Assembly (NCBI GenBank): GCA_005223095.1
Contig: NJBQ01000011.1
Coordinates: 1 to 38,725 of the forward strand
Reading direction: 5' to 3'
Source: Candidatus Aerophobetes bacterium Ae_b3a
Lineage (GTDB): Bacteria > Aerophobota > Aerophobia > Aerophobales > AE-B3A
DNA: 38,725 nucleotides
Both the position numbers and the translations under genes were made by a program. Shown here piece after piece: positions 2,412 to 38,725 of the stretch. The notes below the pieces were generated by a model. The model was given only the letters and a program-made list of their open reading frames with translations, ran no database searches and had not been told where the DNA came from. Each line of letters starts with the position of its first letter. The first letter of the stretch is position 1.

Positions 2412-3683
2412 TCACAATAATGAACTGCTTGCCAGATTCCCTTCCTTATCAAATCTCATTTCTTCTAACTTGCCGATGATTTCGATATCATCTCTGCCCG
2501 TGAGTTCCTCTGTGAGTGCCTCTGAGATATAGACTTCATCCAGCTTTAAGGTATTTTTAATTCTGACTACGCCTGCTTTTTCTGGCTCGATTCCCCAGCA
2601 GGTGTCGAGCGCTATTTCCATTGCCTCACGGTCATTATCTAAGGTAAGGGGGATTTTTCCTCTTATAATAAATCTGGCCGTCAATATGTTAACTAAAGAA
2701 TCCTCATAATTCATTTTCTTGAATAACTTTCTAGTGATGAAATCAGCCAGGCCCAGCCCAGCAGCGTTGCCGTGGGTTTCCTGGCTAAGGTCCAGGATGA
2801 CGATTCTTTTTATCTGGGGAGAGGACGGTTCTTTTTCTCCCAGTATCATCATCCGACCAATAATATTGGTATCCATGCCGGAACCACTTATGTTTTTTCC
2901 CATTTCTTCTACGATGAGAACATCTATTTCATCACTGGGCAGGTGGGGCATTAGTTCTTTAGCCTTTAATAAGAGCTTTTTTTCTTTTTCCTCAAGCTCA
3001 TCCCGTCCAATGGCTTTTATGAGGGCTGTTTCGTGGTAGGCGTTTTCCACCATAGCAACTCCAAAGAGGATAGGCATTTTTTCAGTAATCAAACGAGCGG
3101 CTGCCGGAACCAAGTGATGAAGACCAGCAGCTCCATGCCTATGGATACTGAGAGCTCCTTTATGTTTACCCAAACCAATGACCATAATTTTTGCTATGCC
3201 ACTTTCAATTTCGTCATGAAAATCAGTGTGGGGTTTAACTCGGTTAATGGGAATGATGGCATCTGCCTGAGAGGCGTTCTTATCAAAATAGACGGGAACA
3301 CTATTATCCAAAATACCAATCTTGATTACCTCCATGGAGGAGACAATGGGAGCACCCACAGAGTGTTCGTTTATTCCATAGGATTCCAGGACTTTTTTTT
3401 GTCCTTCTGCTGTAGCTCCCCCGTGACTTCCCATAGCCGGGATGATGAAAGGTTTTGCCCCGCATCTTTTCACCTCCTGCACTACCGCAGCCGCTACCTC
3501 CTTGATATTGGAAATCCCCCGACTTCCGACAGCTATAGCCACACGGGCTCCTGAAGGTAGCTTGTCAAGAAACTGGGCTACTTCTTTTTTTACTTCAGAT
3601 GCGATATCAGCACAAACAGGGCGGGGAAATTTTTGGCGAATCTTTACCATTCTGGGCATCTTAATTTCTTCTCTTACAGACAT
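2412..3683 (-). CDS. LarA-like (DUF2088) nickel-pincer-dependent isomerase homologue
   Basis: A 423-residue protein of the LarA/DUF2088 superfamily, whose founding member racemises lactate with a nickel-pincer nucleotide cofactor. Conserved patches include VGSRG (52-56), GSHGGATAEGQ (85-95), KPHTDF (150-155), GLGKHKGA (170-177) and HRHG (181-184). The His/Lys-rich patches fall where the cofactor-binding residues of LarA lie, though exact equivalence needs a structure-based alignment. The ATG at 3683 is preferred because AAGGAA lies six bases upstream; the longer frame begins with TTG at 3689. The gene follows an oxidoreductase gene by 14 bases and must share its promoter. The substrate is probably a 2-hydroxy acid or polyol-type compound rather than lactate, by inference from its partner. 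No larBCE cofactor genes are in the window. Confidence 0.75.
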   Translation of the reverse strand: MSVREEIKMPRMVKIRQKFPRPVCADIASEVKKEVAQFLDKLPSGARVAIAVGSRGISNIKEVAAAVVQEVKRCGAKPFIIPAMGSHGGATAEGQKKVLESYGINEHSVGAPIVSSMEVIKIGILDNSVPVYFDKNASQADAIIPINRVKPHTDFHDEIESGIAKIMVIGLGKHKGALSIHRHGAAGLHHLVPAAARLITEKMPILFGVAMVENAYHETALIKAIGRDELEEKEKKLLLKAKELMPHLPSDEIDVLIVEEMGKNISGSGMDTNIIGRMMILGEKEPSSPQIKRIVILDLSQETHGNAAGLGLADFITRKLFKKMNYEDSLVNILTARFIIRGKIPLTLDNDREAMEIALDTCWGIEPEKAGVVRIKNTLKLDEVYISEALTEELTGRDDIEIIGKLEEMRFDKEGNLASSSLL

Positions 3684-3697
3684 TTCCAATTCCTTTT

Positions 3698-19316: not shown

Positions 19317-20228
19317 ATGAGATTAATAAAAGAAATCAGTCAGATGAAGGATTGTAGAAAAAAGATAAAGGCACCTCAGACTGTTGGTCTTGTTCCCACT
19401 ATGGGCGCTTTCCATGAAGGGCACCTGAGTTTAATTAGGAAAGCACGTCAGCAGTGCGATAAGGTAGTAGTGAGTATATTCGTTAATCGTATTCAATTTG
19501 GCAAGGGAGATGATTATCAGCGCTATCCACGCAATCTATCAGAAGACATAAGTTTGAGTGAGAAAGAAGGGGTAGATGTAGTATTTGCTCCTTCTTTAGA
19601 AGAGATGTATCCTCAAGACTATTCTACTTTTGTTCAAGTAGGAGGTCCTTTGTCTTCCACGCTGGAAGGGGCTTCTCGTTCCGGTCATTTCAAGGGTGTA
19701 GCCACTGTTCTCATCAAGCTATTCAATATAGTTAAGCCTGACTTTAGCTATTTTGGAGAAAAGGATTATCAGCAGGTTTTAATAGTAAAAAAAGTAGTAG
19801 ATGAGCTTAATCTGGATACCCAAATTATTGTTCTTCCTACCATAAGGGAAAAAGATGGACTGGCTCTCAGCTCACGAAATTCCTACCTTAATAAAGAAGA
19901 AAGAAAAGCCGCTGTCATACTATATAAAGCACTAGAAAAGGCAAAACTCTGGATTGAGGAAGGGGAGAGGAATCCTTTTAGTATAGTTTCCAAAATAAAA
20001 GATTTAATAAAAAAAGAGTCGCTGGCCAAACTAGACTATGTAGCTGTGGTTAATCCAGAGACTTTGGAGAAAGTGGAAGATATAAAGGGAGAAGTTCTTG
20101 CTCTTCTTGCTGTGAGTATAGGAAAAGCGAGGCTAATCGATAATTTGTTGCTCATTGCTGGTCGCTCGTATCTCGAAAAGAAGGAAAAAAAATTTAGCAT
20201 CGAACGTTCAATAAAGAAATGCGAGTAG
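19317..20228 (+). CDS. panC: Pantothenate synthetase, C-terminus extended by a repeat
   Basis: Joins pantoate and beta-alanine with ATP to make pantothenate. Motifs include PTMGAFHEGHLSLI with the HxGH nucleotide site, FGEKDYQQ and the KMSKS-like SSRNSYL. Homologues usually end soon after a RLIDN-type sequence, at about 280 residues. Here the frame continues for some two dozen more residues, GRSYLEKKEKKFSIER and beyond. That tail lies in a large imperfect inverted repeat whose right arm supplies the stop codon. The enzyme core appears intact, and the tail is probably a by-product of the repeat's insertion. Confidence 0.93.
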   Translation: MRLIKEISQMKDCRKKIKAPQTVGLVPTMGAFHEGHLSLIRKARQQCDKVVVSIFVNRIQFGKGDDYQRYPRNLSEDISLSEKEGVDVVFAPSLEEMYPQDYSTFVQVGGPLSSTLEGASRSGHFKGVATVLIKLFNIVKPDFSYFGEKDYQQVLIVKKVVDELNLDTQIIVLPTIREKDGLALSSRNSYLNKEERKAAVILYKALEKAKLWIEEGERNPFSIVSKIKDLIKKESLAKLDYVAVVNPETLEKVEDIKGEVLALLAVSIGKARLIDNLLLIAGRSYLEKKEKKFSIERSIKKCE

Positions 20229-20273: not shown

Positions 20274-21410
20274 GTGGTGTCGAAAAGAATAATGATATGC
20301 GCAGGTGAGGTTTCGGGTGACCTCCATGCGGCTAATTTGGTCCAGGCGGTAAAAAAACTTGCTCCCGATACAGAGTTTTTTGGAATCGGGGGGGAGAAAA
20401 TGAAAGAGGCAGGGGTAAAAATAAGAGATAGAACTGTACATATGGGGACAGTAGGCGTTATTGAAGGAGCTAAGTATTATCCTTCTTTTTGGAAGATAAA
20501 GACAAGACTTAGCAAAGCCCTCGAGGAAGAGCACCCCGATTTAGTGATTCTAGTAGATAGCCGGGATTTTAATTTGAGAATTGCCAAAATAGCCAAAAAG
20601 CTAGGAATCTTGACTCTCTACTATATTGCTCCTCCTATCTGGGCCTGGAACGATTGGCAGAGGAGGAGTATTTCTAGAGATATTGATAGATTCATTGCTA
20701 TTTTTCCATTCGAAGCTGAAGCCTATGAAAGAGCAGGGGCAAAGGTAGATTTTGTGGGATATCCTCTGGTAGACCTGGTCAAACCAAGTATGAGTAAAGA
20801 AGAGGCTTTGCAGAGGTTTAATATTACGTCAGAGAGATTAATAGTTGGTCTTCTTCCTGGTAGTCGAAGACATGAGATACTAAAACTCCTGCCCCTTATG
20901 TTAAAGGTTGCCGTTAGATTAGACAAAGAGTTTAAGGGTATTCAATTTCTACTTGCTGAAGCTTCCTCTCTTTTTCATAAAGAGATTGCCAGAATTGCCT
21001 CCGGGACTGGTCTATCTCTCAAGATTATCTCTAATAATACCTATGATGTAATGAATGTTTCTGACTTAATCATTACTGCCTCAGGGACAGCTACTCTAGA
21101 GGCAACTCTTCTTAATACTCCTATGGTTGTTATTTACAAAACTTCTTTTAGCACCTGGTTGATAGGGAAAATCTTAATAAAATTGCCTTACATAGCTCTT
21201 CCTAATATCATTGCGCGAGAGGAAATCGTTCCCGAGTTAATAGGATTTCAGCTTACTGTAAAGCGTTTGATTGGCGTAGCCCTGGAACTTCTGCATAGCA
21301 AAGAAGGACTGCAAAAGATGAGAGTTAAGTTGAAGAGAGTCGCTGAGAAGTTGGGCAGACCAGGAGCAATAGACCGAGCAGCTAAGGTTGTTGCAGAGAT
21401 GGTTAATTAA
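20274..21410 (+). CDS. lpxB: Lipid-A-disaccharide synthase
   Basis: Condenses UDP-diacylglucosamine with lipid X to form the lipid A disaccharide at the inner membrane. The 378-residue GT19 protein begins with CAGEVSGDLHAANLVQA, then shows FFGIGGEKM, YYIAPPIWAW, the phosphate-binding LPGSRRHEI and SGTATLEATLLNTPMVV, the UDP-sugar site. The GTG at 20274 has AAAGG eight bases upstream. It is the clear orthologue among three LpxB-like proteins in this cluster and the best evidence for an LPS outer membrane. Confidence 0.93.
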   Translation: MVSKRIMICAGEVSGDLHAANLVQAVKKLAPDTEFFGIGGEKMKEAGVKIRDRTVHMGTVGVIEGAKYYPSFWKIKTRLSKALEEEHPDLVILVDSRDFNLRIAKIAKKLGILTLYYIAPPIWAWNDWQRRSISRDIDRFIAIFPFEAEAYERAGAKVDFVGYPLVDLVKPSMSKEEALQRFNITSERLIVGLLPGSRRHEILKLLPLMLKVAVRLDKEFKGIQFLLAEASSLFHKEIARIASGTGLSLKIISNNTYDVMNVSDLIITASGTATLEATLLNTPMVVIYKTSFSTWLIGKILIKLPYIALPNIIAREEIVPELIGFQLTVKRLIGVALELLHSKEGLQKMRVKLKRVAEKLGRPGAIDRAAKVVAEMVN

Positions 21411-21427: not shown

Positions 21428-22573
21428 TTGAGCGTTGTTTCGATAGTGAAATGTGGTGACTATGAGCAAAAGAGAATAGACAGAGCAGTCAAAGAGAGTC
21501 TTTCCTTAATAGGTGGTTTAGATAGAGTGGTAAAAGCTGGTCAGAAAGTTCTTTTGAAAGTGAATATGTTAAATGCTGATCCACCAGAAAAAGCAGTGAC
21601 TACTCATCCGGCTCTTCTCAGGTCAGTAATCAGGGCAGTTAAAGAGGTAAAAGGAGAAGTTATAGTAGGAGAGGCACCTGGGATTGCCTATAAGGATATA
21701 GAGAAAGCCTGGCATGTAACTGGGCTTAAAAAAGCAGCTAAAGAAGAAGGAGCTAAAGTTATTAATTTTCATAAGGTGGAAAGAATTGATAATTCTCAGA
21801 ATAAACAGGTACCTGTTTTACACCTGGCCGGAGAGGTCTTAGGGTCAGATGTAGTCATTTCTCTCCCTAAACTAAAAACCCACAACTTCACCCTCTTTAC
21901 CGGTGCTATCAAGAACCTATATGGTTGTATTCCTGGATTTCATAAAAAAGAACTTCACCGGCTGGTTCCTCGTCCAGAGGACTTTGCCAGGTTAATGATT
22001 GATATTTTTGCTGTGATTAAACCAGACCTTGCTATAATGGATGGGGTTGTGGGGATGGAAGGCGATGGACCAGCGGCTGGTCCTCCCCGCAAGATTGGGG
22101 TGGTTTTGGCCAGTCAGGATCTTGTAGCACTAGACGCAGTTGCCTCTCATATCATCGGTTACGCTCCTTTTGATATAGACATTACCAGAGTAGCTGCAGA
22201 AAGAGGCCTGGGAGAAGGCAAATTAGAGAAAATAGAAATTAAGGGGGCTCCTCTGAGTGAGGCTAAAATAGAGGGTTATCAGCTCGCCTCCAGTATCAAC
22301 ACTCTGTTAAATAAAGTACCTGGTTTTGTTCTTTTTGCTTTCAGGCATCTAGCTCCCTGGGTTCTGAAAATTAAACCTGTAATAGACAAAGATAGATGTA
22401 CCAAATGTGAGGAATGCATTGGACATTGCCCTACCGAGGCGATGAAAATGGGTAAGGACTGTCCTATTATTGATAACAAGAGATGTATTAAATGTTTTTG
22501 TTGCCAGGAGTTTTGCCTGGAGAGAGCTGTAGGGATTAAGTATAATTGGTTGGCTAAAAGGTTTCAAATCTGA
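21428..22573 (+). CDS. DUF362 protein with C-terminal two-cluster ferredoxin domain
   Basis: A 381-residue protein: residues 1 to about 300 form a DUF362 domain (VLLKVNML, GEAPG, SLPKLKTHNFTLFTGAIKN, MDGVVGMEGDGPAAGPP), and the C-terminus carries two 4Fe-4S motifs, CTKCEECIGHCP and CIKCFCCQEFC. DUF362 proteins are widespread in anaerobes and their reaction is unknown. A TTG start at 21428 is set by GGGGGA five bases upstream. Its place between lpxB and an LpxB-like gene, with only 17- and 11-base gaps, ties it to envelope-lipid synthesis by context. A redox step on a lipid or glycan is an inference only. Confidence 0.88.
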   Translation: MSVVSIVKCGDYEQKRIDRAVKESLSLIGGLDRVVKAGQKVLLKVNMLNADPPEKAVTTHPALLRSVIRAVKEVKGEVIVGEAPGIAYKDIEKAWHVTGLKKAAKEEGAKVINFHKVERIDNSQNKQVPVLHLAGEVLGSDVVISLPKLKTHNFTLFTGAIKNLYGCIPGFHKKELHRLVPRPEDFARLMIDIFAVIKPDLAIMDGVVGMEGDGPAAGPPRKIGVVLASQDLVALDAVASHIIGYAPFDIDITRVAAERGLGEGKLEKIEIKGAPLSEAKIEGYQLASSINTLLNKVPGFVLFAFRHLAPWVLKIKPVIDKDRCTKCEECIGHCPTEAMKMGKDCPIIDNKRCIKCFCCQEFCLERAVGIKYNWLAKRFQI

Positions 22574-22584
22574 GGTTTTTCAAA

Positions 22585-23820
22585 ATGCATATTTTTATGG
22601 TGACCAATAGTCCAGGTGAGGTGATGGGATGGGTGAAGCCAGCAGCAGAAAGACTAAAGGAAAAGCAAAAAGAGACAATAATTACTGTGGTTATTCCTCC
22701 CTGCCAATATGCCAGTGGGATGGAAGATAAAGTAGCAGGAGAGATTCCTGCCGTAGATTCTGTGGTGGGTCCATCTCAGTATTTGAAATATCTTTTTTTA
22801 GGCAGCAGACCTTCTTCTTTTCGCCAGGCAAAGAAAGGAGTCATTGTTTTCTTAGGAGGGGATCCCTTTCATGCTCTCCTTCTTTCTAAACGTTTAAAGC
22901 TACCTGCTGTAGCTTACATCCAAAATTTAAGATGGAAGAGGTATTTTAAGAGATTTATGGTGCTTAGCGAGACCATTAGAGAAAGGTTTATCGCCCGGGG
23001 AGCCAAAGAAGAAAAAGTTGTGGTAGTAGGGGATTTAGCCAAAGATGGAATGAGAGTGAAGATGTCTGCTAAAGAAACATTCAACTATTGGGGACTTGCT
23101 CCTGGGTATTTGGTTATTTCTTTTCTCCCTGGAAGTAGGCTGGAGGAGATAAGGTATATGACTCCCTTTTTTTTAAAAGCAGCCGAGCTCATTAAGAAAG
23201 AGTTTCCCTCAAGCCAATTTCTTCTAATACTTTCTCCTTTTGTTTCTAAGAAAGAGTTAAACGCTGTGAATGGAGAGAGTTTAAGTAAGACGTTTTCAGG
23301 AGTAGGGGCTAAATTAAAGAAAGAAAGTGGTCAATGGAAATTGATTACCAAATCTGGCTTAAAAGCCTTGGTAATTGAAGAAAAGAGATACGAAGCTATA
23401 AACATTTCTCATTTAATTATAACGATTCCTGGTACTAACACGCTAGAGTCAACCTACCTGGGGACTCCTATGGTAGTAGCTATTCCTTTGAACAAGCCAG
23501 AAGCAATACCCCTGGACGGCCTGGCAGGATTAGTGGGGGGTTTGCCAATAATAGGTTCTCTTATTAAAAGACAGATGGTAAAGCAATATAGTAGGAGCAT
23601 CAAATTCGCAGCTATACCTAATATACGAGCAGAGAGGGAAATTGTGCCTGAAATAAGAGGGATAATCAAGCCAGCTGATGTAGCTAAAGAGGTGATAGGG
23701 CTGTTGAGAAGCCCCGAACGACTCACCGAAATGAAAGAGGAACTGAGAAAGATAGCCAGGACAACAGAAGGCGCTGCTAATAAAGTCGCAGATATCATCC
23801 TTGAGGTGGGAAATTGGTGA
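22585..23820 (+). CDS. LpxB-like (GT19-related) glycosyltransferase of unknown acceptor
   Basis: A 411-residue relative of lipid-A-disaccharide synthase. The N-terminus MVTNSPGEVMGWVKP replaces the LpxB GEVSGD motif. The nucleotide-binding half is preserved with SFLPGSRLEEIRYM and TIPGTNTLESTYLGTPMVV, matching the LPGSR and SGTATLE blocks of LpxB. An extra hydrophobic loop, GLAGLVGGLPIIGSLI, lies in the C-terminal half. It probably transfers a sugar to a lipid or polyprenyl acceptor, but it is clearly not a second LpxB. It follows the DUF362 gene by 11 bases and is likely cotranscribed. Confidence 0.75.
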   Translation: MHIFMVTNSPGEVMGWVKPAAERLKEKQKETIITVVIPPCQYASGMEDKVAGEIPAVDSVVGPSQYLKYLFLGSRPSSFRQAKKGVIVFLGGDPFHALLLSKRLKLPAVAYIQNLRWKRYFKRFMVLSETIRERFIARGAKEEKVVVVGDLAKDGMRVKMSAKETFNYWGLAPGYLVISFLPGSRLEEIRYMTPFFLKAAELIKKEFPSSQFLLILSPFVSKKELNAVNGESLSKTFSGVGAKLKKESGQWKLITKSGLKALVIEEKRYEAINISHLIITIPGTNTLESTYLGTPMVVAIPLNKPEAIPLDGLAGLVGGLPIIGSLIKRQMVKQYSRSIKFAAIPNIRAEREIVPEIRGIIKPADVAKEVIGLLRSPERLTEMKEELRKIARTTEGAANKVADIILEVGNW

Positions 23821-24184: not shown

Positions 24185-25231
24185 ATGCATATCTTGCACC
24201 TTACACCTTATATGTCTTTAGGGGGAACAGAAAGACATATTCTTAACTTAATCGCACAGGGTTTATCACGAGGGTACCAGGTCTCTTTAGCCTCACCAGC
24301 GGGTGAGGGGTTAAGAGAAGTTCCCGATACGGTTAGGCTCTATCAGATAGAAAATTGGCGAGGGTTAAAATTATTAGGCTCAGTTAAAGCCTTAAAGGAG
24401 ATAATTCTTGCTGTTGGTAATAAGGTGGATCTCGTGCAGGTTCATGCTTCAGCAGAAATGGCATACTTAACAAAGAAATACCTGACAAGAAAGCCGGTTA
24501 TTTTTACCTGCCATGGCTATAATACCCACCCTCCTTACTTTAACTATTGGCTTGCAGCAAGATTCTTAACAAGAATAGACTGTATAGTTGCTCTTACTCC
24601 CGAAGAAAAAGAGTATTTTCTTCGGGGAGGAATTAAAGAGAGTAAATTAGTAGTTATTTCTAATGGAGTAGAAAAGAAATTTTTCCGTGTTCCTTCTTTT
24701 CATCAGGATGATGGTGAAGTGATAGGTTTGGTGGGGAGATTAGTTAAAGAAAAGAATTTTGCCTGGGCTGTGAAGATGCAGGCTAAATATAGATTTGCTT
24801 CTAAGCTCTTTATAGTAGGAGGGGGTCCCTATCGTTCTAAACTGGAAAAGTTAGTGAAAAAATTGAACTTAGAAAAAGAGATAATCTTCCTGGGTCATAA
24901 AAAAGAGATGGAAAAGATATATCCCCTTTTCACTTATCTTTTGATCTCTTCCCGCAAGGAAGCCTTTGCCCTGGTTATCCTGGAGGCATTGGCTGCCGGT
25001 GTGCCAGTGCTTGTTCCTCATTGGCTTTTCGGAGTGAGGGAGTTCTATGGCTCTGCGCCTGGTGTGGTTACCTTTAAAGGAGGGAAGGATTTAAAACAAA
25101 AAGTGGAAAAAGGGGAAGGGAAGATAATGGGAGATAGAATCCAGTCTTTTGCCCGTAATTTTCTGTGGGGAAATATCTTTGATAGATATGAAGAATTATA
25201 TAGCCATCTCTTGATGAGGAGAGAATTCTAA
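24185..25231 (+). CDS. Glycosyltransferase family 4
   Basis: A 348-residue GT-B glycosyltransferase. The acceptor-side glycine-rich loop SLGGTERHILNLI is near residues 13-25. The donor-side domain has VGRLVKEKNF and SRKEAFALVILEALAAGVPV, the E-x7-E region that binds the nucleotide sugar. Probably adds a sugar to a lipid-linked glycan or LPS core on the cytoplasmic face. AGGAG sits four bases from the ATG. Its stop codon shares a base with the start of msbA, so synthesis and export are coupled. Confidence 0.9.
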   Translation: MHILHLTPYMSLGGTERHILNLIAQGLSRGYQVSLASPAGEGLREVPDTVRLYQIENWRGLKLLGSVKALKEIILAVGNKVDLVQVHASAEMAYLTKKYLTRKPVIFTCHGYNTHPPYFNYWLAARFLTRIDCIVALTPEEKEYFLRGGIKESKLVVISNGVEKKFFRVPSFHQDDGEVIGLVGRLVKEKNFAWAVKMQAKYRFASKLFIVGGGPYRSKLEKLVKKLNLEKEIIFLGHKKEMEKIYPLFTYLLISSRKEAFALVILEALAAGVPVLVPHWLFGVREFYGSAPGVVTFKGGKDLKQKVEKGEGKIMGDRIQSFARNFLWGNIFDRYEELYSHLLMRREF

Positions 25232-26970
25232 TGGCAATGAAACCCTGGCGTCGTTTATTAGTCTATCTGAAGCCATACTGGCCACTCTTTATATTGGTTT
25301 TGTTTCTTACTCTGGCAGTTACTTTGACTACCCTGGCTCTTCCCTGGATAATTGGAAAGAATTTAATTGATTCGGTTATTTTAGGAGAAAAGAGTCTTAA
25401 GCTGCTAAACTTAATTGTTCTGGGGATAATAGGGATAGTTGCTTTGAAGGGGCTCTTCTCCTTCGCACAAACATATCTAATGTCTCTTATTAGTTTTAGA
25501 GTAGTTACTGAGCTCCGTAATCGTGTCTATGAGCACCTGCAGCGTCTTTCCTTGAGTTTTTATAGAAAAAGACAGACCGGAGAGATTATCTCGCGGGTTA
25601 TCAATGATGTGGACCAGTTACAAAATGCCCTAACTACTACAACTGTTAATTTTCTTACCAATTGTCTTATTTTGATAGGTGTCTTTGGGTTAATTTTTTA
25701 TATTCATTGGCAGCTTTCCCTTTTTGTTCTAATAGTCATTCCTATTATTGCCTTTGCTGCTAATAAATTTGGTCAGTCGATAAGAAAATTTAGTAGTTCC
25801 ATTCAGACTAGAATAGCTAACATCTCTTCTATCCTGCAGGAGACGATAGTGGGGGTTGAGGTAGTAAAGTCTTTTGGTGCAGAAAGTAGAGAGATTGAGA
25901 GGTTTAAGGAGGAAAACGCCAGGACTCTTCAATTGTCTATAAAGAGAACTCGCTTCATTGCTGCTCTTACTCCTTCTATGGAGATATTGACCCTGATAGG
26001 GCTAGCAGGGATTCTCTGGTACGGAGGAAGAGAGGTTATAAGAGGAACCTTAAGCACAGGAGAACTGGTTACCTTTTTGGGGTACATAGCCCTGGCAGTT
26101 AATCCCCTGACCTATATTAGCCAGACTTTTGGTGTCTATCAACAGGCAATGGCTTCAGCAGAGAGGGTTTTTGAACTCATGGATACAGAACCTGAAATAA
26201 AAGAATCTCCTCAGGCAGTGGAGATGCTACGTCTAAAGGGCTCTGTGCAGTTAAAGAATGTCTATTTTGGTTATGATGGAGAATCAGTGCTGGAGAATAT
26301 TGATTTAGAAGTCAAACCGGGAAAGAGATTAGCCCTGGTGGGGCCTAGTGGTGTAGGTAAAACCAGCCTGGTTAGCCTTATTCCCCGTTTTTATGATCCT
26401 ACCTCCGGGCTTATTACTATAGATGGATATGATATTAGAAAGGTAAAGCTGGCTAGTTTAAGAAAACATATAAGCATTGTTTCCCAGGAGACTATACTTT
26501 TTAATGGCAGCATCCGAAATAACATTGCTTACGGCAAAATAGAGGCGTCTGATGCAGAGATCATCAAGGCAGCTAAACAGGCTAATGCCCATAGTTTTAT
26601 TATCGGACAGAGAGATGGATATGATACACAGGTAGGTGAGCGGGGAGTAAAGCTTTCAGGAGGAGAGAGACAGCGTATTGCTATAGCCAGAGCTATTATT
26701 CGAGATCCCCGTATTCTCATTCTCGATGAAGCCACCTCTTCTCTGGATACAGAAAGTGAAATTCTGGTTCAGCAGGCACTGGAAAGACTTATGGAGGGCA
26801 GGACTACCTTTGTCATTGCCCATCGGCTTTCTACCATTCAGGGAGCAGATATAATTGTTGTGCTTAATGACAAAAAAATTGAGGAAATTGGCTCTCATAA
26901 AGAGCTTTTGGCTAAAGATGGATTATATGCACGATTGTATAGAAAGCAATTTAAATTAGAGGAAGACTGA
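25231..26970 (+). CDS. msbA: MsbA-type lipid flippase ABC transporter
   Basis: A 579-residue half-transporter. Residues 1 to about 310 form the six-helix exporter domain with the QTGEIISRVINDVDQLQ intracellular loop. The ATPase domain has Walker A GPSGVGKTS, the Q-loop VSQETILF, signature LSGGERQR, Walker B ILILDEAT and the switch His in IAHRLST. In the lpxB/glycosyltransferase setting it most likely flips lipid A-core or a related glycolipid across the inner membrane; other type IV exporters look similar, so the name rests partly on context. Confidence 0.88.
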   Translation: MAMKPWRRLLVYLKPYWPLFILVLFLTLAVTLTTLALPWIIGKNLIDSVILGEKSLKLLNLIVLGIIGIVALKGLFSFAQTYLMSLISFRVVTELRNRVYEHLQRLSLSFYRKRQTGEIISRVINDVDQLQNALTTTTVNFLTNCLILIGVFGLIFYIHWQLSLFVLIVIPIIAFAANKFGQSIRKFSSSIQTRIANISSILQETIVGVEVVKSFGAESREIERFKEENARTLQLSIKRTRFIAALTPSMEILTLIGLAGILWYGGREVIRGTLSTGELVTFLGYIALAVNPLTYISQTFGVYQQAMASAERVFELMDTEPEIKESPQAVEMLRLKGSVQLKNVYFGYDGESVLENIDLEVKPGKRLALVGPSGVGKTSLVSLIPRFYDPTSGLITIDGYDIRKVKLASLRKHISIVSQETILFNGSIRNNIAYGKIEASDAEIIKAAKQANAHSFIIGQRDGYDTQVGERGVKLSGGERQRIAIARAIIRDPRILILDEATSSLDTESEILVQQALERLMEGRTTFVIAHRLSTIQGADIIVVLNDKKIEEIGSHKELLAKDGLYARLYRKQFKLEED

Positions 26971-34409: not shown

Positions 34410-35770
34410 TACTTTTCTATGAACTCATCCCTTACCCTTTTTAGTTCTGGAGTGGGAATAATTTTGAGTAGTTTCCAGCCAATATTTAAAGTCTCTTCTA
34501 CTGGGCGGTCTTCATTTTGTCCTTGTGAGACAAAGTCTCGCTCGAATTCATCGGCGAAGCGAAGATATTTCCTGTCCATTTCACCAAGAGTAGCCTCACC
34601 CATAACCAGTGCCAATTCCCTGATTTCCAGTCCCTGGGCGTAGCAAGCATAGAGCTGGTTGGACAACTCACGGTGGTCTTCTCGGGTTTTCCCTCCTCCT
34701 ATTCCTTCATCCATCAAACGGGATAGGGAAGGAAGGACATTTATGGGAGGATAGATTCCCTTCTGGTGAATATTTCTTTGCAGTATAATCTGACCTTCCG
34801 TAATGTAACCGGTAAGGTCAGGTATGGGATGGGTTTTGTCATCATCAGGCATGCTGAGGATAGGAATTAAGGTGATAGAGCCTTTTTTCTCCTTAATTCT
34901 ACCGGCTCTTTCGTAAATACTAGCCAGATCTGTATAAAGATAGCCCGGATATCCTCTTCTTCCGGGAACTTCCCGTCTGGCAGCAGAAAGTTCACGCAGC
35001 GCTTCAGCATAGTTGGTCATATCAATCAAGATGACCAGAATATGCATTTCTTTGTCGAAAGCAAGGTATTCGGCGCAAGTTAAAGCCATTCTGGGCGTAG
35101 AAATTCTCTCGATTACAGGGTCATCGGCCAAATTGAGAAAGAGAGTGGTTTTTTCCATTGCGCCACTGGCTTCAAAGTTGGAGACAAAGAAATTTGCCTC
35201 TTCAAAAGTTATTCCCATAGCAGCAAAGACAATACCGAATTCCTCCTCTTTTCCCAGAACCTTAGCCTGTCTGACGATTTGAGCTGCTAATTGAATATGA
35301 GGTAGGCCAGCTCCTGAGAAAATGGGTAGTTTTTGTCCTCGCGAGAGTGTGTTCAGTCCATCAATAGCTGAGATTCCGGTCTCGATAAATTCCTCTGGAT
35401 AGGCGCGTGATTCAGGATTAATAGGGCTTCCACTTATATCCAATCTTTTCTCTGGAATTATCTTTGCTCCTCCGTCTCGAGGTCTGCCCCATCCGTCAAA
35501 TACCCTTCCTACAAGATCCTCCGATACATCCAGTTGAATTCCCTTGCCCAGGAACTTTACCTGGGTTCCTTCTATCCCTAAGTCGGTAGCCCGTTCGAAT
35601 AATTGCACTAAAGCTGTTTGGGAGGTTACTTCCAGAACTCTACCTCGCCTTCTTTCTCCATTAGCCAGCTTAATCTCTACCAGCTCTTCGTAAGAGATTC
35701 CTGAGACTTTTTCTATTAACATCAAAGGTCCGGTGAGTTCTTTTACAGTAGTATATTGCTTTATTTTCAT
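34400..35770 (-). CDS. ntpB: V/A-type ATP synthase subunit B
   Basis: Regulatory, non-catalytic subunit of the A3B3 head. The 456-residue protein has the family's degenerate nucleotide site, with [15 protein letters not shown] where a true P-loop would be, plus [54 protein letters not shown]-type sequence and [18 protein letters not shown]. The ATG overlaps the end of subunit A by 4 bases. Complete and intact. Confidence 0.96.
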
Positions 35771-38725
35771 CCTCTATCCTCCCTCTTATTTATCAACTCA
35801 TCAACCTCTTTTTTTAATTTCCTGCTTATTTTCTCTCTCTCTTTTTCTATATCTTCTTCAGGGATAAATTTCATCTTGGCGATATCTTCTCTTACAGAAA
35901 GAGAAATGAGGCTGTCTAAGGATATTTCTTTTCTTAGAGCTTCCAGGGATACATCATAATAACTCAACACGGTTTTCAGCATCAGATACTGTTTTTTTAT
36001 GGAAGTATAAGTATCTATGTCATGAAAAGCAAATTGCTGCAGGAAATCTTCCCTCAAAGAACGGGCTGTTTCCATAGCTATCCTGTCTTGACTGGATAGG
36101 GCATCCAACCCTACCAGCCTGACTGTTTCTCTTAATTCGTCCTCTTGCTGCAGCAGAGCCATAGCTCTAGCTCGTAGCCTCATCCAGTCAGGAGCTACTT
36201 TTTGAGTGAAGTACTTCTCCAGGTCTTCTAAGTAGAGCGAATAACTGCGCAGCCAATGTATGGCTGGAAAATGGCGTTGGTAGGCTAATTCAGCTACCAG
36301 AGCCCAGAAAACTCTTACTACTCTCAGGGTAGCCTGGGTTACTGGTTCAGAGAGGTCCCCTCCCGGTGGAGATACCGCCCCAATAGTACTTAGACTTCCT
36401 TGGCGTCCATCCTTTCCCAGGCAAATAATTTTTCCTGCCCTTTCATAAAACTCAGCTAGCCTGGAAGGAAGATAAGCTGGATATCCCTCTTCTCCCGGCA
36501 TCTCTTCCAGTCTTCCGGACATCTCTCTTAGAGCTTCGGCCCAACGGGAAGTAGAATCAGCCATTAGAGCAACATCATAACCCATATCTCTATAGTATTC
36601 AGCCAGGGTAATTCCGGTATAAATAGAGGCTTCCCGTGCTGCCACTGGCATATTGGAAGTATTAGCTATCAAAATAGTCCTTTGCATTAAGGGTTTACCT
36701 GTCTTGGGGTCTTTCAGTTGGGGGAATTTCCTCAGAACATCAGCCATCTCATTACCCCTCTCGCCACACCCTGTGAAGATGATAATCTCTGCATCTGCCC
36801 ATTTGGAAAGCTGGTGTTGGACCACCGTATTATGGAGAAGAATTGGCCCGTGCCCTCCCACGAAATTCTCTTTTTCAGGGACACAAACATCATAGACATT
36901 GATAGGGTCCTTAATTTCCTCAGTACTTACGATTCTGTCGCAAAAAATATAATCTAAAAGAGAAGACAACCTCAGAATTTGACTGTATTTATCCTTTTTC
37001 CCATCTTCCTTTAAGAACTCAGCAAATCTCTTGAATGTGCTGGTACTCATTCTTTCTCCATTACCAATATAGTTACTTATTTCTATCCCCCCAGCTTTGA
37101 GTTGAGAGTAGGTGACCTTTGAGTTATGATAAAGGCTGGATATGATTTTACTGGACAGAGGGACCACATCATAAGAGGTATAAGTGGTTTTTTTTGAATC
37201 TATATAGTCCTTGATTTTGTGAATCCTATCAAATTTTTCACTATTTTTACCCATTGCTTTATAAAATATTTTCAGATTATTGATACCTCGAATGAAAATA
37301 CGATAGTAGTTCTTTTCTTTGAACTTTTTGATAGCCAAAAGATGAAAAATCCCCAATCTGGTTAGAGTATAAGAAAGACCAATTTGCAACTTATTGCTAG
37401 CTGTAGAAAGCTCTATTTCTCCTTGAGAGAAAGAGCCATCGCCCAGGTAATATCCCTTTAAAAAGGCAGAGAGAATTTTGTCGCTGGATTTTAGAATAAG
37501 GGAGGGAATTTGTTTGTCGGAAGAGTTGCCTCCAGCATCTATGGCCTTGATAAAGTCTACAAAAATTTTATTGTGCACGAGAATTCCAGGAGTTTTTCCC
37601 TTTTGTATCTCCTTTTTAGTTTTGATACCAAAGATATAATTAATCAAGTCAGTAAATTGTTTTAGAAGTATATCGTCTCCGTTAGTAAAGACGGCTGTAT
37701 TTTTGGTTCTGATATATCCTTCAGCAATGAAAAGCCCTAGGACTTCACCTAATTCCGGGCTGGTCTGAGACGGGATATGGACAATCTGGCCCCATCTGGC
37801 CCCTCTTAGTTCTTTAGGAATAGGGAGGGATAGACCAGTCTGGCAATAGACTTCTTTTACTAAAGAGAGAGGAGGAAGATTTCTTTTATAGATAAAGCTT
37901 TCTGCGTTTACCTTGGAGATTCCTACCAAAGATAATTTCTGCTCTTTCCTGAGATTTCGCAAAACCTGGGAAAACTCTTCTCTGATAGAAGTATCTGCCA
38001 CCCTAGCTTCTTTTAGCTCGTATAGGTCAAATCTTGCCTTTCTGTTTCTGGTCTCTATCTTTCGCACAGCAGCGATAAAATCTCCTACCCGCAGATTCTC
38101 AGCTTTGGTTTGAACAATCTCTCCCTTCTCATTTATTCTGAATAGTTTGTGAGAAGGAGTGACTTCGACCGAACGTCCACTCCTTGTCTTAATGCGAATA
38201 ATAGAGTCAGTTTTTCCCTTGTAAAGAATAGAGGAGTTTGATCCTTCAATTTTATTTGTGTTCATAGAGAAAAGAGAAAGTGAAGGCTTAATCTCAATTA
38301 TTGTCTCTAGGCCATTTGTTTTTACTTTCCCTTCTTTCAAGTACTTTCTATAAAGTTCCTTCATAGTGAGAATAGTTCCGTTACCAAGGATCACTGGAGT
38401 ATCGCCAACCACGCATTTTCCACTTCCGAAGGGGCCAGGAATACAGGCAGTTCCTCCTTTTGCAATAGGAAAGAGAGTATCAATGACTCTCTGGCCAGTA
38501 ATAAGAGGCTCCTCAGGAGCTAATTGCTTCTTGTAGGGCCTCATCTTTCTTACCGGCCATTTTTGCAGCATGCATATTTTCTCTTCCTTTCCTTGATAGG
38601 TTTCGATAATGGCGATTATGTCCTCAACTTTTGCTTTACCTCCTCTTATTTTTCTTATTTTTCCTTTTATTCCCACTGGAACAAGAATACGATGTTCGAT
38701 TATTTCTGTCTCCTGGACAGTCCCC
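35767..38725 (-). CDS. ntpA: V/A-type ATP synthase subunit A, intein-containing, N-terminus beyond window
   Basis: Catalytic subunit of the rotary ATPase. The frame is open to the window edge: upstream of the GTG at 38676 it still encodes family sequence ([17 protein letters not shown]), so the start and roughly 130 residues lie outside. Host segments are [24 protein letters not shown], the P-loop GPFGSGK-T interrupted by an intein after Lys, then [30 protein letters not shown] and [23 protein letters not shown]. Removing the 529-residue intein leaves a normal subunit. Order A-B-D is standard; the remaining subunits are expected just beyond the window. Confidence 0.95.
36829..38415 (-). mobile_element. 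Intein with LAGLIDADG homing endonuclease in the V-ATPase P-loop
   Basis: A 529-residue in-frame intein between GPFGSGK and TVVQH. Block A is [10 protein letters not shown] with Cys1; block B is [10 protein letters not shown] with TxxH at 86-89; endonuclease motifs are LGLFIAEGY (226-234) and [12 protein letters not shown] (318-329), both with their acidic residue; block F is [15 protein letters not shown]; block G is ILLHN, ending in penultimate His and terminal Asn with Thr as the +1 residue. All splicing and nuclease residues I can check are present, so it looks active. The position corresponds to the archaeal VMA-b site, not the yeast VMA site before CGERG. Confidence 0.92.

Follow-up and report, generated by a model that had tools for sequence, protein, structure and literature searches.

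Among the described systems closest to the locus analysed here is the four-enzyme route by which Cyanobacteria and Dictyoglomi make a Kdo-free lipid A (PMC3087551). Another is the LarA superfamily, with which DUF362 shares the Pfam clan CL0471 (PMC11770544); the LarA positions relevant to this study are H174, K184 and H200 (PMC7583248, PMC11770544). According to the portions of PMC11796402 consulted, about 15% of genomes carry LarB, LarE and LarC without LarA, most cyanobacteria being without LarA, and the protein that uses the nickel-pincer nucleotide (NPN) in LarA-less organisms with LarB/C/E, the cyanobacteria above all, is stated as an open problem; the authors of that work expected the missing user to have a fold distinct from LarA. 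For DUF362, the excerpts of the literature found under DUF362, COG2006, PF04015 and DUF362 with nickel name no reaction.

The window, i.e., the whole stretch of DNA that was analysed, is an entire contig of 38.7 kb from a genome of 2.37 Mb that, among named records, is closest to Candidatus Aerophobetes MAGs. The DUF362-ferredoxin gene lies in the order panC, lpxB, DUF362-ferredoxin, LpxBrel, GT4, MsbA-like exporter, GT2 and TIGR03492 protein (Table 1). The initial annotation described a DUF362 protein with two 4Fe-4S sites placed between lpxB and an LpxB relative, with gaps of 17 (lpxB to DUF362) and 11 bases (DUF362 to LpxBrel); the Pfam and TIGR scores and the cysteine motifs confirm this description, and both gaps are exact on recount. 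The label 'LpxB relative' is correct for the downstream gene because its product matches Pfam LpxB and scores 55.9 bits against TIGR00215, under the cut-off. Upstream of the DUF362 gene the operon runs aro genes-panC-lpxB, shikimate and pantothenate genes being mixed in, and adjacency alone is therefore weak evidence for a role in lipid A synthesis.

Table 1. Features of the window discussed in the text, with positions, strand and supporting evidence.
Feature	Position	Strand	Evidence
LarA-like protein, NCBIfam NPN isomerase group 22 (NF052515)	2412-3689	-	546.9 bits, cut-off 400
panC	19317..20228	+	TIGR00018 337.2 bits; syntenic, kept upstream of lpxB
lpxB, lipid-A-disaccharide synthase	20274..21410	+	TIGR00215 280.4 bits (cut-off 190.25); Pfam LpxB 315.2 bits
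DUF362-ferredoxin protein, 381 aa, TTG start	21428..22573	+	Pfam DUF362 200.4, Fer4 26 bits; AlphaFold2 pLDDT 90.6
Predicted LarA-fold domain, ~aa 1-290	21428..22297	+	VIA-align Z 17-19 against lactate/malate racemases, 214-220 residues, rmsd 2.9-3.0
H152 codon, LarA H174 column (putative catalytic His)	21881..21883	+	hhalign, register kept when masked; 73/73
K162 codon, LarA K184 column (putative NPN-site Lys)	21911..21913	+	hhalign, shifts 5 when masked; 73/73; 4/4 distant paralogs
H177 codon, LarA H200 column (putative Ni-ligand His)	21956..21958	+	hhalign, shifts 2 when masked; 73/73; 4/4 distant paralogs
2[4Fe-4S] ferredoxin domain, C-terminal, ~aa 315-372	22370..22543	+	eight invariant Cys; Z 9-10 against clostridial-type ferredoxins
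LpxBrel, LpxB-related glycosyltransferase	22585..23820	+	Pfam LpxB 50.6 bits; conserved neighbour
GT4 glycosyltransferase	24185..25231	+	Pfam Glyco_transf_4 / Glycos_transf_1
MsbA-like ABC exporter	25231..26970	+	TIGR02203 558 bits, slightly under cut-off 602
Third LpxB-family protein, TIGR03492	28072..29301	+	319.3 bits, above cut-off

The DUF362 core (Pfam PF04015) covers residues 41-240 with 200.4 bits, exceeding the gathering cut-off of 24 bits, and is followed by a Fer4 match at residues 317-339 (26 bits). The protein has two CxxCxxCxxxC motifs, whose cysteines (C324/327/330/334 and C353/356/359/363) are the same in all 73 aligned relatives; eight near-identical or partial loci were left out of this alignment, and a smaller alignment comprises 45 of the 73 rows. 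Outside the cysteines, K44, N46, P61, K148, K150, H152, K162, G166, H177, F186, D205, G212, G214, P215, G218 and D236 are identical in 73/73, as are P335 and E361 in the ferredoxin part. This domain content and these invariant residues are common to the window protein and the DUF362 family members with a C-terminal ferredoxin. The ferredoxin domain with its eight invariant cysteines would also suit an Fe-S electron carrier or an assembly factor with no catalytic activity; however, invariant K44, N46, K148, K150, H152, K162, H177, D205 and D236 are more typical of an active site and the remainder of the protein has a predicted LarA fold, so that we regard such a role as very improbable.

This fold emerged from an AlphaFold2 model built on the 73-sequence alignment (pLDDT 90.6, pTM 0.90); an earlier model from 9 sequences was weaker (pLDDT 72.5). 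The nine best VIA-align matches of the model had Z-scores of 17.2-18.9, covering 214-220 residues with an rmsd of 2.9-3.0 A. Of the twelve best, one is an uncharacterised Thermotoga protein (4nar, Z 14.9); the others are LarA or malate racemases and further LarA-like NPN enzymes. Foldseek gave a best E of 7.5e-7 with modest TM-scores, about 0.4 by query length. Sequence profiles of DUF362 or of NPN isomerase group 22 gave no match to LarA in the PDB among the matches listed, and the PDB matches to DUF362 were all ferredoxin-type (best 60 of 300). The model indicates that the DUF362 part has the fold of the NPN lactate/malate racemases (LarA N-terminal domain), a likeness to the 2-hydroxyacid racemases and epimerases of the LarA superfamily (PDB 5huq, 6d6z, 9eid) at Z 17-19. 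As for the LarA C-terminal domain, some alignments end near model residue 286 and others reach about residue 357; unlike LarA, the window protein ends in a 2[4Fe-4S] ferredoxin.

Of 17 Aerophobota genomes, 16 have LpxC and all 17 an LpxB-family match, with LpxK above the cut-off in 0/17 and WaaA in 0/17. LpxK and WaaA were not found either in WOR-1/Saganbacteria (3/3) or in UBA8530 (1/1); both are present in Elusimicrobiota (4/4). Because the two enzymes were not found in the 17 Aerophobota genomes, the three of WOR-1 and UBA8530, the lipid A of these lineages is probably Kdo-free, a conclusion drawn from gene absence in sets where many genomes are incomplete. In having LpxC and LpxB and neither LpxK nor WaaA, Aerophobota resemble the Cyanobacteria and Dictyoglomi as described in PMC3087551; unlike the pathway described there, the Aerophobota operon also carries LpxBrel and, optionally, a DUF362-ferredoxin gene. 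That DUF362 replaces LpxK or WaaA was rejected as a main reading, since Elusimicrobiota have both genes and four Aerophobota genomes without LpxK and WaaA lack the DUF362 gene in this operon. Elsewhere in the window's genome, on contig C45, lpxD adjoins an lpxC-fabZ fusion (L175, 1881-4214).

How far the DUF362 gene keeps company with lipid A genes was assessed within the phylum and beyond. Orthologs with 60% identity or more occur in 9 of the 17 Aerophobota genomes, the window's own counted, and the order lpxB-DUF362-LpxBrel is found in 9/9 of these (in two of them lpxB is truncated where the contig ends); chance adjacency is ruled out by this conservation of the three-gene order. Genome contigs were then scanned for DUF362 loci, yielding 80, whose flanks (6 kb sought, often shorter) were searched with LpxA, LpxB, LpxBrel, LpxK, LpxL, FabZ, TIGR03492 and HldB-like seeds. 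A lipid A gene (lpxA, lpxB, LpxBrel, lpxL or lpxK) occurs in the flanks of 16 of the 80 loci, which belong to four lineages: Aerophobota (8), WOR-1/Saganbacteria (3), 'Cyanobacteria bacterium UBA8530' (1) and Elusimicrobiota (4). In the three WOR-1/Saganbacteria loci LpxBrel lies beside DUF362, followed in two by an MsbA-like gene and lpxL; the UBA8530 MAG has the order fabZ-lpxA-lpxB-DUF362; and in all four Elusimicrobiota loci (L073, L082, L089, L061) lpxL comes directly after DUF362, with lpxK next in L061. The window's subclade, linked to lpxB or LpxBrel, thereby differs from the DUF362 family at large, as 64/80 scanned loci gave no match to the lipid A seeds, an upper bound because the seeds were limited and some flanks short. 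Uniqueness of the DUF362-lpxB adjacency to this genome, the outcome named in the initial annotation as counting against its proposal, is not what was found: within the phylum the linkage to lpx genes is conserved, and it is seen again in three further lineages. As would be expected of a member of a lipid A (Raetz) pathway gene cluster, the gene keeps its adjacency to lpx genes across lineages. A record titled 'Clostridia bacterium' (L050) has the same gene order as the window, with 63-77% identity, and is probably a mislabelled Aerophobetes MAG.

In a quick tree of 82 proteins (four short proteins were left out), the lipid-A-linked rows cluster: the 17 labelled rows require 3 changes, compared with a mean of 15.7 after shuffling. 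Thirteen of them fall in one 16-row clade (SH-aLRT 97), together with three rows (L070, L078, L081) without lipid A genes. Aerophobota, WOR-1 and UBA8530, in which LpxBrel or lpxB adjoins DUF362, fall in one supported clade. The Elusimicrobiota rows branch outside the 16-row clade and, since these bacteria also keep LpxK and WaaA, their lipid A link may be separate.

From the linkage, the domain content and the fold, our best single reading, which we hold tentatively, is that the DUF362-ferredoxin protein is a redox tailoring enzyme of a probably Kdo-free lipid A. It would be a two-domain oxidoreductase, predicted to be cytoplasmic, made of a LarA-fold catalytic domain and a C-terminal 2[4Fe-4S] ferredoxin, and would belong to a DUF362 subclade of probably Kdo-free diderms encoded beside lpxB and/or LpxBrel. 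Its task would most probably be to tailor, as an optional step, the lipid A/LPS under assembly: a hydride would be removed from or donated to a hydroxyl or keto carbon of the glycolipid, of its sugar donor or of an acyl precursor, with two electrons travelling through the ferredoxin domain. The lipid A context points to an unusual pathway, probably without Kdo, in which a redox gene is optional.

The gene is dispensable, however, and is not required wherever lpxB and LpxBrel occur. Four Aerophobota genomes (G002, G003, G005 and G013) keep panC-lpxB-LpxBrel with no DUF362 gene in between, lpxB and LpxBrel being separated by 12, 15 or 33 bases or overlapping by 4 bases (mechanical ORFs). Elsewhere in the phylum, lpxB runs off the contig end (G007), LpxBrel adjoins an MsbA-like gene on a different contig from LpxB (G014), or LpxB is in a different gene context (G011, G016); the LpxBrel search was unmatched in G007, G011 and G016, the same search having also missed the existing LpxBrel of G010. 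The WOR-1 protein has a match with E of at most 1e-60 in 25 of 74 Margulisbacteria genomes; threonine synthase (thrC) lies within about 1.5 kb in 16/25 of these loci and LpxBrel in 7/25, both figures being lower bounds owing to contig ends. Another set of loci, rich in Aminicenantes, has as neighbours a 2-hydroxyacid dehydrogenase (16 loci), an aminotransferase V (15) and DUF1015 (7), counted as clusters of which one representative each was verified.

With thrC commoner than LpxBrel in WOR-1 and the gene absent from four operons, the lipid A reading competes with another, which takes the protein for a housekeeping enzyme of the DUF362 family that acts in general metabolism (on hydroxy acids, Ser/Thr or cofactors) and lies by chance in a mixed biosynthetic operon, its lipid A neighbours resulting from operon inheritance and not from function. 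The window operon, running aro genes-panC-lpxB-DUF362, the thrC neighbour (the ThrC of L056 was verified) and the Aminicenantes-rich neighbour set favour this possibility, as does the gene's absence from the four lpxB-LpxBrel operons; yet a single inherited operon would not be expected to yield links to different lipid A genes in four lineages, and LpxBrel or lpxB was kept adjacent across Aerophobota, WOR-1 and UBA8530. We consider a general metabolic role nearly as probable as lipid A tailoring. The initial annotation proposed that the protein modifies the glycolipid or its donor by iron-sulfur-dependent redox chemistry, and this is partly supported: the redox role fits a LarA-type hydride-transfer fold joined to a 2[4Fe-4S] ferredoxin, whereas the glycolipid or donor as putative target has against it the four operons without the gene, the mixed operon and the prevalence of thrC in WOR-1. 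In the WOR-1 loci L176-L191 and L198 no neighbour of the DUF362 gene is commoner than thrC, and the neighbour set of mostly Aminicenantes loci such as L069, L074, L075, L096 and L123 hints at a different DUF362 substrate.

A link between DUF362 and NPN enzymes is offered by the window itself. Its group-22 protein (Table 1) scores 25 bits against Lar_N and 21.3 bits against DUF362, the latter under the cut-off, and by these profile scores is a sequence bridge between the LarA and DUF362 families. Aligned by hhalign (E 1.1e-5, probability 82%, 174 columns), DUF362 and group 22 bring H152, K162 and H177 onto the invariant H148, K161 and H177 of group 22. When the triad columns were masked, H152 stayed in register, K162 was off by 5 positions and H177 by 2; the placement of the latter two therefore rests partly on the residues themselves. 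The LarA numbering relies on the published positions and on the group-22 bridge, because a plasmid search for true LarA proteins to map residues yielded only a group-22-like set. The His-Lys and Lys-His spacings are 10 and 15 in DUF362, 10 and 16 in LarA (as given in PMC7583248) and 13 and 16 in group 22. Four distant DUF362 paralogs in the window's genome keep K162 and H177 (4/4) and, in 2/4, H152. The DUF362 protein would thus share with LarA the catalytic His column and, less firmly, the Lys and Ni-His columns. Of the two catalytic histidines of LarA (H108, H174), only the H174 column is His in DUF362: H83 of group 22, in the H108 column, aligns immediately before A-P-G, and nothing in the alignment corresponds to LarA H108. 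According to PMC12611868, a single His is likewise seen in some LarA homologs, there with Asn at the H174 position. Group 22, for its part, aligns with DUF362 at E ~1e-5 and weakly matches the DUF362 model, but unlike the window DUF362 protein has no ferredoxin and keeps its second histidine, H83; on a Sulfitobacter plasmid its neighbour is a LarC gene, whereas DUF362 lies beside no lar biosynthesis gene in the scanned loci. The predicted LarA fold of the DUF362 protein and the invariant H152, K162 and H177 in putative NPN-site columns are new here.

These likenesses raise a further possibility, which overlaps in part with the other readings: that DUF362 proteins, the window's included, are NPN-dependent enzymes. 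K162 would tether the pincer nucleotide, H177 would ligate nickel and H152 would serve as the single acid/base, the ferredoxin allowing net oxidation or reduction in place of racemisation. The structural matches of the predicted model, the hhalign placement of the triad, the LarA-like spacings and the retention of K162 and H177 in the paralogs, where H152 varies, argue for it; the masked shifts of K162 and H177 count against it. The distribution of the NPN biosynthesis genes is mixed. Among 14 control genomes, DUF362 occurs in 5, LarE in 5 and LarC in 6, and all three coincide in four of the five genomes with DUF362 (Synechococcus elongatus, Thermotoga maritima, Haloferax volcanii and Methanosarcina acetivorans), the fifth, Bacteroides ihuae, having DUF362 without LarE or LarC. 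LarE or LarC was found in 16/16 genomes comprising UBA8530 and 15 Margulisbacteria chosen from the 25 matches, and in 2/4 Elusimicrobiota with the DUF362 protein. Inside Aerophobota there is no contrast, since 8/9 genomes with the DUF362 gene and 6/8 without it have LarE or LarC. A strict NPN requirement seemed refuted by LarE alone; LarC restored two genomes, but G015 (93% complete), which has the DUF362-ferredoxin protein and neither LarE nor LarC, still stands against it, as do the two Elusimicrobiota lacking both.

Gene context also weighs against NPN dependence. In the scanned DUF362 loci the LarE, LarB and LarC seeds gave no match, the only match of the four lar seeds being the window's own LarA-like gene, and no DUF362 gene lies beside LarE or LarC in 20 regions (one 16-bit match, L207, was not counted). 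The window genome's own NPN isomerase can, moreover, account for its LarBCE. That LarB, LarC and LarE occur without LarA, in cyanobacteria above all, as set out in PMC11796402, speaks on the other side, and we judge NPN dependence of DUF362 proteins unlikely. A larE-larB-larC cluster for NPN synthesis lies on contig C67 of the window's genome (L201, 8422-11176).

Less probable again is the conjunction that DUF362 and DUF362-ferredoxin proteins are the missing NPN enzymes of NPN-making, LarA-less genomes, cyanobacteria included, and that the Aerophobota and WOR-1 members act on Kdo-free lipid A. If true, it would mean an organonickel-dependent step in LPS synthesis, in which a ferredoxin turns the hydride relay of a racemase into a net redox reaction. 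A broad family without an assigned reaction, present in 5/14 control genomes, now offers two handles. One is the lipid A context conserved in a single subclade. The other is the invariant His-Lys-His triad on a predicted LarA fold, which bears directly on which protein uses NPN without LarA, the question stated in PMC11796402. At the far end of the window (35767-38676, minus strand), a gene for a V/A-type ATPase catalytic subunit is split by an intein that carries a LAGLIDADG domain.
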